Origin: a virus
Length of the DNA stretch: 34,937 nt
Reading direction: 5' to 3' (one strand)
IMG/VR virus record: IMGVR_UViG_3300011114_000162
Location: 1 to 34,937 of that record
A program made the translations under genes and the position numbers. Shown piece by piece: positions 7,810-12,553 of the stretch; positions within the stretch are counted from its first letter, which is position 1, and the number at the start of each line of letters is the position of its first letter. The notes below the pieces were generated by a model. That model worked only from the letters and a program-made list of their open reading frames with translations. It was not told the DNA's origin and made no database searches.

Positions 7810-7854
7810 AAGACCTCCTAAAAAGACCGCTACGAAGTGTTGCGGGTTGGATGT

Positions 7855-7860
7855 ATTGTA
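7855..7860 (-). promoter_or_regulatory. Leftward early promoter, -10 box
   Basis: Read leftward, TACAAT (one mismatch to TATAAT) abuts operator O1. A TTGGCT at 7880-7885 could serve as -35 but with a long 19-base spacer. Transcription would begin near 7848, leaving about 40 bases of leader with the strong Shine-Dalgarno before 7809. Confidence 0.5.
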
Positions 7861-7871
7861 AGCCAGCTTAC
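7858..7871. promoter_or_regulatory. Operator O1
   Basis: GTAAGCCAGCTTAC, an inverted repeat with 6-base arms (GTAAGC/GCTTAC). It overlaps the leftward -10 box. It is one of three related sites in the divergent control region and is the likely binding site of the small HTH protein encoded at 7954. Confidence 0.7.
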
Positions 7872-7876
7872 ACACA

Positions 7877-7890
7877 TTAAGCCAACTTAC
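7877..7890. promoter_or_regulatory. Operator O2 (imperfect)
   Basis: TTAAGCCAACTTAC, which matches O1 at 12 of 14 positions but has a degraded left arm. Its right half is followed by ATT, as O3 is followed by AAT. O1 and O2 are 19 bases apart centre to centre, roughly two helical turns, which suits cooperative dimers. Confidence 0.6.
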
Positions 7891-7930
7891 ATTGCGAATT
7901 GCATTAGGGCAAACCCTATGTTTGATGCCC

Positions 7931-7944
7931 GTAAGTTAGCTTAC
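7931..7944. promoter_or_regulatory. Operator O3
   Basis: GTAAGTTAGCTTAC, with 5-base arms (GTAAG/CTTAC). It lies 9 bases upstream of the ATG of the HTH gene and overlaps that gene's own candidate -10, implying autoregulation. Confidence 0.7.
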
Positions 7945-7947
7945 AAT
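7942..7947 (+). promoter_or_regulatory. Rightward early promoter, -10 box
   Basis: TACAAT overlaps the right edge of O3, mirroring the leftward promoter. TTTGAT at 7921-7926 could be a -35 but the spacer is only 15 bases. The start of transcription would fall at or next to the ATG at 7954, giving a leaderless mRNA; no Shine-Dalgarno is visible before that ATG. Confidence 0.45.
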
Positions 7948-7953
7948 CGCAAG

Positions 7954-8109
7954 ATGACCAAACAGGAACTTATCGACAAAGCAGGCTCACGCAAGGCGCT
8001 GGCTGAGTTGCTGGGCATCAGCCTGGCAGCCATCAGCCAATGGACGGTCATTCCAAGGGCGCGGCTGTGGCAGCTTAAAAATTTACGGCCCGAATGGTTT
8101 AATCCTTAA
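7954..8109 (+). CDS. Cro/YdaS-like HTH regulator
   Basis: 51 residues starting MTKQELIDKAGSRKALAELL. A helix-turn-helix occupies about residues 13-33 (RKALAELLGISLAAISQWTV). The size and the short C-terminal strand-helix (IPRARLWQLKNLRPEWF) fit Cro-like or YdaS-like proteins, which bind small palindromic operators as dimers. It faces the three GTAAG-N4-CTTAC sites and probably represses both early promoters. Upstream in-frame codons exist, but the operators and -10 sit there, so 7954 is chosen. No partner CI repressor is found. Confidence 0.85.
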   Translation: MTKQELIDKAGSRKALAELLGISLAAISQWTVIPRARLWQLKNLRPEWFNP

Positions 8110-8146
8110 ATTTCATGCATAATCCAACCCGTCTAGAGTGGCATCT

Positions 8147-8290
8147 AGGCGATGAACTGGTGAGAACCCCGCAGGGTACTGTGTGGTCTTGTCGTACGGC
8201 AAGCGAGTCTTTTGACCAGTTCAATCGCCTTGCTGTTGCTCTCGCCAAGAGCCAAGACCACAGAGCATCTTGCGGGGTTTTTGCTTTTGG
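8147..8290 (+). ncRNA. Highly structured RNA element, candidate ncRNA or attenuator
   Basis: Bases 8166-8191 pair with 8253-8278 as a 26-position helix in which 24 positions pair (two of them G-U). The enclosed loop holds a hairpin of 8238-8242 with 8248-8252 and another of 8199-8206 with 8225-8233 (one bulge). Bases 8147-8161 (AGGCGATGAACTGGT) can also pair with 8215-8230 (one bulged A), which would make an H-type pseudoknot, and that arm competes with the 8199-8233 hairpin. TTTTTGCTTTT follows. The element starts about 40 bases after the Cro-like stop. It could be an attenuator, a put-like antitermination RNA or a stand-alone RNA; I match it to no known family. Confidence 0.6.
8253..8288 (+). 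terminator. Rho-independent terminator at the end of the structured RNA
   Basis: The GC-rich base of the long helix (ACCCCGCA at 8166-8173 with TGCGGGGT at 8271-8278) is followed directly by TTTTTGCTTTT. It should stop rightward transcription after the Cro-like gene unless overcome, like tR1 in lambda. Confidence 0.65.
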
Positions 8291-8520
8291 ACTGCCCAAT
8301 GCGGTGCGTCGATGGTTGGGCAAGAGATACCCCGTTACACGAGCAAGCCAAAACGGGGAGCGTGGGCTAATACCTAGAGCGCGGTGGTTGAAACAGTCTG
8401 GGTTAGTGCGATGCGATGACATGGCTCCGAAAAGCAAGTCACGGCACAGAGCGAACTTTGGTTATGACCACGGTAAGGCTGTGCTTTGCTCCAACATTCA
8501 CCAAAAAGCAAATAAGGAAG
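8291..8520 (+). other. Gene-poor stretch with further hairpins
   Basis: No convincing gene lies between 8291 and 8520. Visible inverted repeats are TGCCCAA (8293-8299) with TTGGGCA (8316-8322), CCCCGTT (8330-8336) with AACGGGG (8352-8358), and GCACAG (8444-8449) with CTGTGC (8479-8484). A long frame crosses 8115-8552, but it has no ribosome site, reads through the structured RNA and looks like no protein I know. This may be a leader for the replication gene. Confidence 0.5.
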
Positions 8521-8523
8521 ATG

Positions 8524-8922
8524 ATGACCTTAGATATGTTTGGCTTACCTGAACAACCTAGAAAGACCGATGAAGGCTTTGATGAGTTTTGGAGTGCTTA
8601 CCCAGCTTGTCCAAGAAAAGGCTCAAAAAAAGTCGTCAAAGAAAAATGGCGCGACATTTATTGTTTTACTCAAAAAGAGACAATTTTGAAGCACGTTTCT
8701 TGGCTAAAAACAACCGAGCCTTGGCTAAAAGCAAACGGCGCATTCATTCCCGCGCCTTTGGTCTACCTTAATCAACAACGCTGGGACGGGGCTGAAGTGC
8801 CTGAGATGCCCGCCAAGGTTGACTCTGCGCTGCAAAAGATTTTTGAGGATGACAAAAAAGCCGCGCCTATGCCTGACCACATTCGGGAACGCTTGAACGA
8901 ATTGCGTGGTCGCCGTGTATGA
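8524..8922 (+). CDS. Phage replication-type protein (FW..YP motif)
   Basis: 132 residues starting MTLDMFGLPEQPRKTDEGFD. FDEFWSAYPACPRKGSKKVV is the hallmark found in the C-terminal part of many phage replisome-organiser or DnaT-like proteins, followed by a conserved WLKANGAFIPAPLVYLNQQRW segment in which the ending F(I/Y)P.P..YLN..RW is typical. Here it stands alone without the usual N-terminal DNA-binding domain. It probably helps load the host replisome. The start at 8524 is preferred because AAGGAA lies five bases upstream; the adjacent ATG at 8521 is possible. Confidence 0.7.
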   Translation: MTLDMFGLPEQPRKTDEGFDEFWSAYPACPRKGSKKVVKEKWRDIYCFTQKETILKHVSWLKTTEPWLKANGAFIPAPLVYLNQQRWDGAEVPEMPAKVDSALQKIFEDDKKAAPMPDHIRERLNELRGRRV

Positions 8923-11359: not shown

Positions 11360-11862
11360 AAATCACCCAAAAAAATGTTGACAGCCTTATTCCTTATGTA
11401 AAGAACAGCCGCACGCATTCGGACGCACAAGTAGCGCAGATTGCGGCAAGCATTAAGGAATTTGGTTGGACAAACCCCATTTTGGTGGATGGGGACAACG
11501 GCATCATTGCGGGCCACGGGCGGCTGATGGCGGCGCGTAAGTTGGGTTACAAGGAAGTACCAACCATTGAACTGGCAGACCTTACCGAGACGCAAAAGCG
11601 GGCTTACATCATTGCTGATAACAAACTTGCATTAAATGCTAGTTGGGATGATGAGGTTTTAAAAATTGAAATTTCAGATTTACTTGCAGATGAATTTACA
11701 CTTAGTGTTTTGGGTTTTGATGCCGATGAATTGCAAAAGCTGCTAGATGTGCCAGGCTTTGAGCCAGCAACGCAAGATGATCAAAGCAAATTAGATGAAC
11801 TAGAACCTAAATGGATTGATTGCCCACATTGCGGGAAAGAATTTGATGCAAGACAAGCTTAG
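11356..11862 (+). CDS. ParB/Srx-like protein with C-terminal zinc knuckle
   Basis: 168 residues. The N-terminal ParB-like domain shows LIPYVKNSRTHSDAQVAQIA, SIKEFGWTNPILVD, and IIAGHGRLMAARKLG (residues about 50-64), the CTP/DNA-binding core of the superfamily. AYIIADNKLAL follows as in phage ParB-methylase proteins. The C-terminus ends with IDCPHCGKEFDARQA, half of a zinc ribbon. Such domains are usually joined to a DNA methyltransferase; here the gene instead overlaps a Mom-like gene by 17 bases. It probably helps direct or regulate DNA modification; this is inference. Confidence 0.8.
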   Translation: MKITQKNVDSLIPYVKNSRTHSDAQVAQIAASIKEFGWTNPILVDGDNGIIAGHGRLMAARKLGYKEVPTIELADLTETQKRAYIIADNKLALNASWDDEVLKIEISDLLADEFTLSVLGFDADELQKLLDVPGFEPATQDDQSKLDELEPKWIDCPHCGKEFDARQA

Positions 11863-12553
11863 CCTTAAAATTGATTGGGCAAGCCATGAATCGGCTAAGT
11901 ACGCCTGCACAAAATGGCATTACAGCAAATGTGTGCCTGTGTTTAAGTGTGTTCGCATAGGTGTTTGGGAAAACAATAAATTTATTGGTGTTGTCTTATT
12001 TGGTCAAGGCGCAACACCTGAAATTGGGTCGCCTTACGGATTAAAGCAAGTCGAAATATGTGAACTAACAAGAATTGCCTTAACCAAACACATAACGCCA
12101 GTTTCTAGGATATTGTCTATTGCGTTTAAGTTTTTGCATAAAAGTTCACCAAACCTAAGAATGATTGTTTCATTTGCAGATGAAGGTCAAGGTCATCATG
12201 GTGGAATTTATCAAGCAACAAATTGGATTTACACGGGTGGCGCTGAAACACACGCATATTTAGTAAACGGCATACAATACCATCCAAAATCATTACATTC
12301 AAAATACGGCGTAGGTGGTCAATCTATTCCGTGGTTGCAAAAAAATGTAGACAAAAATGCAAAACGGATTATTTCTGGATTTAAACACAGATACCTAATG
12401 CCGCTTGATTCTAAAATGAGAAATCAAGTGGAAAAATTAGCAAAGCCTTATCCTAAGCGTGTGAAGCAGGCGATGGTCGATTCCCTCGACACAGCGGCGG
12501 TGCATCACCGACCCACACGCTCCAATTTGACATTGGTAGCAGAAACTGCTTAA
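11846..12553 (+). CDS. Mom-like DNA-modification protein (GNAT fold)
   Basis: 235 residues starting MQDKLSLKIDWASHESAKYA. Family segments are WHYSKCVPVFKCVRIGVWEN, GVVLFGQGATPEIGSPYGL, VCELTR-like EICELTRIAL, and FADEGQGHHGGIYQATNW. I recognise these as the Mom family; in phage Mu, Mom converts adenine to a carbamoylmethyl form that blocks restriction. Start 11846 is chosen because GGGAAAG precedes it and the conserved part begins at once; it overlaps the ParB-like gene, as com overlaps mom in Mu. Base composition is more AT-rich than flanking genes, hinting at separate acquisition. Confidence 0.85.
   Translation: MQDKLSLKIDWASHESAKYACTKWHYSKCVPVFKCVRIGVWENNKFIGVVLFGQGATPEIGSPYGLKQVEICELTRIALTKHITPVSRILSIAFKFLHKSSPNLRMIVSFADEGQGHHGGIYQATNWIYTGGAETHAYLVNGIQYHPKSLHSKYGVGGQSIPWLQKNVDKNAKRIISGFKHRYLMPLDSKMRNQVEKLAKPYPKRVKQAMVDSLDTAAVHHRPTRSNLTLVAETA

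Follow-up and report, generated by a model that had tools for sequence, protein, structure and literature searches.

We analyzed a stretch of viral DNA of 34,937 bases (hereafter, the window), which is taken from the IMG/VR virus record IMGVR_UViG_3300011114_000162. On its plus strand, a Cro-like HTH gene (7837–8109; Pfam P22_Cro, E 7e-9; PHROG 409) is followed directly by a folded RNA of ~390 bases, which runs from a promoter at 8118–8123 to ~8512, and then by a replication-initiation-like gene (8524–8922; PHROG 9474, E 1e-12). The coordinates of the Cro-like gene are those of the longest open reading frame, and its true start is probably further in. The RNA has two halves: a 5′ module (8130–8290), made of a hairpin and a U-tract, and a covarying 3′ module (8290–8504). 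A preliminary description had pointed to a pseudoknot-capable structure at 8147–8290. The structure is indeed there, but this span covers only half of the element, which extends to ~8512; the element's own promoter and the open reading frame discussed below had also been missed. In a model scan of the window, the element was matched at one place, on both strands; the covariance-model match on the minus strand (8154–8329, 45.5 bits) arises because the element is nearly palindromic. Further along the window, a Mom-like DNA modification protein is encoded at 11816–12553 (PHROG 1384, E 1.7e-60), just 5′ of the terminase.

An open frame of 145 aa (8115–8552, plus strand) spans the RNA, and conserved protein coding across the region was the outcome that, according to the preliminary description, would speak against an RNA. 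On the face of it there is something to be said for a protein gene: the frame is open in the window, a tblastn search with its translation returns 179 matches, and the copy in the phage MW202484 has been annotated as a hypothetical protein. However, no coding signature was found. The matches jump between frames within single loci, lengths across relatives do not differ in multiples of three, and differences are spread about equally over the codon positions of the frame (0.162, 0.192, and 0.181). Stops occur in all three frames in 67 of the 115 loci fetched by DNA pattern, and neither Pfam nor PHROG gave a match for the 145-aa frame. At the DNA level, identity over 8115–8516 is mostly ~75–94%, higher than that of the flanking genes, which in most loci reach ~70–80% over short stretches or are unmatched. 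Frame jumps, length changes, and even codon-position differences rule out a protein gene here, and we treat the frame as spurious and give the coding interpretation virtually no weight.

Just upstream of the 5′ module lies a promoter-like stretch consisting of TG and the −10 hexamer CATAAT (8116–8123 in all, with the hexamer at 8118–8123). Its position is fixed among relatives: a match to TATAAT at 5–6 of 6 bases occurs at this place in 118 of 139 distinct 5′-module loci versus 7 of 543 random-position controls. In 60 of the 139, four or more of the six −35 bases match as well, compared with about 14% of controls. The window's own −35 is poor, and a consensus scan did not find a full sigma-70 promoter at the window element. 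Judged from the fixed −10 position, the RNA would start at ~8128–8131, which would put the beginning of the first hairpin (H1) approximately at the 5′ end of the transcript.

The 5′ module is far more stable than expected for its composition, with a folding energy of −76.9 kcal/mol for 8140–8300 versus −50.7 (sd 3.8) for shuffles (z = −7.0; 0 of 200 shuffles as good). We examined covariation in an alignment of 63 loci (A1), in which 96.9% of cells in the fold are paired, versus 89.0% in shuffles and at most 47% when partners are slid by 1–3 columns. Twenty-five pairs show double changes, giving 265 double-change cells versus 67 in shuffles. Hairpin H1 (8130–8136/8145–8151) is paired in 99.5% of cells, with three pairs changed on both sides and a nearly invariant loop, AGUGGCAU. 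The main terminator-like helix, of 25 bp (8165–8191/8253–8279, 25 of 27 positions paired), is paired in 98% of cells and has eight pairs with double changes; it encloses two inner hairpins (8196–8203/8229–8236 and 8238–8242/8248–8252) that are 95.6% and 97.8% paired and together contribute eight double-change pairs. An unbiased mutual-information scan placed Watson-Crick pairs of both modules at the top.

The pairing of an upstream strand (8147–8161) with the loop (8215–8230), proposed earlier from the window alone, is borne out as 8148–8160 with 8216–8229, and compensatory changes, the evidence that the preliminary description had asked to be looked for, were found in both helices. This pseudoknot has a core (8154–8160/8216–8222) and an extension (8148–8153/8224–8229), and is supported by covariation, by a strand-shuffle test, and by mutual information. 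The core is 91% paired with double changes in 6 of 7 pairs; in the extension, the pair 8149–8228 is GC in 20 sequences, AU in 18, GU in 11, and unpaired in none. The pseudoknot strand is hypervariable and yet stays complementary to its partner, such that 106 distinct strand pairs have a mean duplex energy of −15.3 kcal/mol versus −6.1 (sd 0.27) for shuffled partners. H1 (8130–8133 with 8148–8151) and the extension have the strand 8148–8151 in common and are mutually exclusive, although both are conserved. The earlier proposal of competing helices was thus right in kind. Their exclusivity suggests, but does not prove, a strand exchange during transcription.

After the main helix comes the expected T-tract, a U-tract at 8278–8290 (UUUUUGCUUUUGG) in which U-richness is retained while G/C positions drift. 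The terminator scan assigned no score to the main helix, whose loop exceeds the size that the scan rule allows. A simple intrinsic terminator is ruled out, since too much conserved structure flanks the U-tract on either side, in agreement with the earlier remark that there is far more structure here than such a terminator needs. In several modules of a second 5′ type (beta, below), the 5′ strand could be seen by eye to pair with sequence beyond the U-tract; the energy test of this pairing was uninformative, and we did not retain it. As for the switchable attenuator proposed earlier, mutually exclusive helices do exist, in H1 and the pseudoknot extension, but neither of them uses the strands of the terminator stem. 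No covarying alternative partner for those strands appeared, so that neither a classical attenuator nor antitermination by disruption of the stem is indicated.

The 3′ half in the window, module A (8290–8504), is defined by covariation over 58 loci and by mutual information. Its hairpins lie at 8294–8300/8315–8321, 8331–8336/8352–8357, 8360–8362/8380–8382, and 8460–8462/8467–8469, with a pseudoknot at 8372–8375/8400–8403 and a stem at 8444–8449/8479–8484, all on the plus strand. In the alignment, 94.4% of cells are paired versus 76.7% in shuffles and at most 47% with slid partners, and there are 254 double-change cells versus 66 in shuffles; one misaligned row (L084) slightly lowers these figures. 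The tetranucleotide GUGC stays alike at 8406–8409 and 8481–8484, and both copies are able to pair with 8444–8447, a strand that may therefore have two alternative partners.

Module A ends a median of 21 nt before a start codon, and a start codon lies within 60 nt of its end in 92% of cases versus 62% at random positions. A Shine-Dalgarno-like sequence precedes the start codon in 78%, and no terminator was seen at the module's end where this was measured. This arrangement makes it conceivable that the RNA acts after transcription, with the 5′ hairpin and pseudoknot protecting the mRNA and the 3′ module controlling ribosome access, so as to boost or time translation of the following gene, whichever that is. 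An H1 that begins at the inferred first nucleotide would suit such a role, as would another 3′ module (B), which in many loci ends at GGAG-AACCT-ATG, and the variety of downstream genes. Nonetheless, we regard this reading as unlikely: it leaves the conserved U-tract in the middle of the element unaccounted for, and the distance between module A and the start codon varies (10th–90th percentile, 10–47 nt).

A further feature of module A is a direct repeat, AAAAGCAA, with an internal copy at 8430–8437 (after GGCTCC) and a 3′ copy at 8504–8511 (after CACCA, just before the ribosome-binding region), both on the plus strand. The repeat is 7–9 nt long, and its sequence varies between phages while the copies stay alike within each phage. 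Over 93 distinct copy pairs, the mean identical run is 7.6 (minimum 5) versus 4.0 (sd 0.13) for shuffled pairs, and the mutual-information analysis shows agreement in 94% of sequences for columns 8432/8506 and 8433/8507. A Shine-Dalgarno-like sequence is in many cases partly shared with the 3′ copy. One locus with a different 3′ module (L191) has the same layout, GGCTCC-GGGGAGTAA followed by CCACCA-GGGGAGTAA, whereas no direct repeat was found in the module B alignment. We found no third element within the RNA that covaries with, or pairs with, both copies; the T-tract and UGCUUU are complementary or similar to some repeats only by sequence, without covariation.

The strand complementary to the 3′ copy would covary with the repeat automatically. 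The internal copy might then pair with the complement of the RNA's own 3′ flank, either on the DNA template, forming an R-loop for priming or origin marking or serving a guide-like recognition of a target, or on an antisense transcript over the ribosome-binding region. The joint drift of the copies, the absence of a third covarying element inside the RNA, and the preservation of the arrangement in L191 would all fit. We nevertheless consider such strand recognition improbable, as the repeat is only 5–11 nt long and does not appear in the module B alignment, the neighbors examined include no nuclease, reverse transcriptase, or IS110-type protein, and the replication-origin skew has no clear minimum at the element. 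A broader version, in which swappable 5′ pseudoknot and 3′ modules form a single unit and the 3′ module copies its own 3′ flank to recognize the complementary DNA or RNA strand, would make this a new class of combinatorial phage RNA; on the present sequences we hold it to be quite unlikely. Were the repeat to reflect strand recognition, it would represent a new mode of RNA action.

Both halves of the element are exchangeable. The window's 5′ module (alpha) precedes about seven unrelated 3′ modules, and module A in turn follows at least three other kinds of 5′ module with this architecture, namely beta and, once each, gamma-like (L232) and delta-like (L216) modules. A promoter-like sequence, a pseudoknot formed with a long hairpin, and a U-tract recur in each of these; beta has covariation of its own, and for gamma and delta the pseudoknot was identified by eye. 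Placement is nearly constant in one setting: a 5′ and 3′ pair lies directly before the replication gene in 64 of the 65 loci with enough upstream sequence (alpha-A in 40, beta-B in 14, and alpha-B in 10). The sole assessable replication-gene locus without an RNA module (L394) has a different gene upstream. An association with a terminase gene was seen in 33 loci, in most of which the element lies 20–210 bases after that gene; since the same 3′ module is found there in other phages, it is not restricted to early regions. A large terminase of 754 aa (L211:7979–10243) has an apparent intein-like insert with a nested HNH-like open reading frame, and similar terminases, some about 472 and some about 750 aa long, adjoin the RNA. 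Common neighbors overall are Cro, Erf, replication, terminase, and small genes.

This distribution bears on whether the RNA acts in trans, as the preliminary description had suggested among its options. The 5′ module could be a separate small RNA of ~160 nt, from promoter to U-tract, acting for example on the host's RNA polymerase or mRNAs or on a ribonuclease, and the 3′ module a leader that belongs to the following gene and has no connection with it. A promoter, a compact fold, and a hairpin with a U-tract together amount to a complete small-RNA gene, and its occurrence with many 3′ modules and in more than one genomic place is what a free-standing gene would show. On the other hand, every class of 5′-module locus that we read has another conserved module close behind, two independent genes need not remain adjacent while each is being exchanged, and the helix was unscored as a terminator. 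A separate trans-acting RNA is further weakened because module A, where measured, showed no terminal terminator and ends so close to a start codon. We view a trans-acting small RNA as unlikely.

The RNA is common in viral metagenomes: at least about 310 loci carry it, some of them on the same contigs, and in one group of phages the replication gene is almost always preceded by it. As loci were partly fetched by the translated open frame or by RNA-derived patterns, the sample is short of very diverged relatives and biased toward the conserved spots. A diverged beta-B version occurs in the uncultured podovirus MW202484 (L400; MW202484.1:33533–33892), where the hypothetical protein annotated over it, UOF77725.1, is probably a mis-annotation; standard pipelines label the RNA in this way. 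Another beta-B version, found by a replication-protein search, is on one Comamonadaceae assembly contig (L316), which hints at the host. The window RNA had no match in 50,697 phage records or in 72,556 plasmid records, and an exact-pattern search for prophage copies in 84,980 species genomes found nothing. In 401 genomes from the family to which L316 belongs, model R1 gave two weak matches of 85 bases, which we disregarded, and module A DNA gave none.

Taken together, the location between cro and the replication genes, the fixed promoter, a hairpin resembling a terminator, and the short distance to the next gene point to a cis-acting leader that alters readthrough by RNA polymerase, at the position of lambda nutR and HK022 putR. 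Also in its favor are the long hairpin with a U-tract that alpha shares with the beta, gamma-like, and delta-like modules, the 5′ and 3′ pair found before nearly every assessable replication gene, and the two exclusive helices with a common strand. We favor this reading tentatively, with a probability of roughly 0.38. Sequence comparison establishes the folds, the promoter position, the modular build, and the linkage to neighboring genes, whereas how the RNA would act is deduced from them. From the sequence we infer a promoter-initiated leader of ~390 nt, with two folded modules, that would be co-transcribed with the downstream operon. The 5′ module would fold while it is being made, H1 first; the 3′ strand of H1 would then be taken into the pseudoknot, clamping the long hairpin before the polymerase reaches the U-tract. 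The clamped hairpin would set whether the polymerase stops or continues there, as a put-like or attenuator element, and the 3′ module may organize the rest of the leader as far as the ribosome-binding region. Against this leader model stand the occurrence of the same 3′ module after terminase in other phages and the direct repeat with its covarying copies, for which the model gives no account.

The RNA appears, from sequence comparison, to belong to an undescribed family of large structured phage RNAs. Rfam 15 gave no match to the window at the gathering score, and a permissive search gave implausible matches only. Among six relatives, the sole Rfam match was int-alpA at 35.5 bits (gathering score 35.8; L059:3427–3500), toward the 3′ end of a 3′ module of another type and ahead of a gene start. 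ARAGORN found no tRNA or tmRNA in eight loci covering the module types, and we found no description of this RNA in the open-access literature. Like GOLLD and ROOL, it is large, ornate, and covarying, and tied to phages and metagenomes; however, it is smaller and linked to a promoter and a downstream start codon, and it has no Rfam match to either family, assuming that both are in release 15. Bridge, omega, and guide RNAs contain an internal stretch identical to the DNA next to their element, and module A likewise holds an internal copy of its 3′ flank. Here, however, the repeat is short and the element is the fixed companion of a phage gene. IS110-type bridge RNAs and omega RNAs are encoded together with their recombinase or nuclease; no IS110 or TnpB protein was obvious among the neighbor sequences inspected, where a minority of the clusters had been annotated.

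The closest parallels in position come from lambdoid early regions. In lambda, nutR and the terminator tR1 lie just after cro and gate the replication genes, the same place as that of the RNA described here, and in the late region the strong promoter pR′ is followed about 170–200 nt on by the terminator tR′, a layout comparable to that of the 5′ module; antitermination in lambda needs N or Q. Neither arrangement is known to have a pseudoknot or covarying modules. Model R1 gave no match to the early region of HK022 (L399), on which the placement of putR is our assumption. The RNA here lies directly after a Cro-like gene and downstream of an early promoter position, and putR is similarly placed, ~270 nt downstream of the PR start and so just after cro (PMC9378689). 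HK022 put is a folded cis RNA, transcribed early by the phage, that lets the host polymerase read on (PMC9378689), antiterminating by direct contact with the β′ zinc-binding domain. Of the three roles proposed in the preliminary description, which sequence alone does not separate, this shared position favors a put-like element or an attenuator, although put is unmatched at the sequence level. HK022 put measures about 70 nt and has two stem-loops, and the descriptions consulted mention no U-tract, whereas the RNA here is ~390 nt with pseudoknots, its own promoter, and two swappable modules; HK022 also has putL and putR, in both early operons, whereas the leftward operon of the window has no second copy. 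As size, fold, and copy number do not fit, we do not class it as a put RNA. Should RNA polymerase be its target, the RNA would amount to a counterpart of put that is large and modular.
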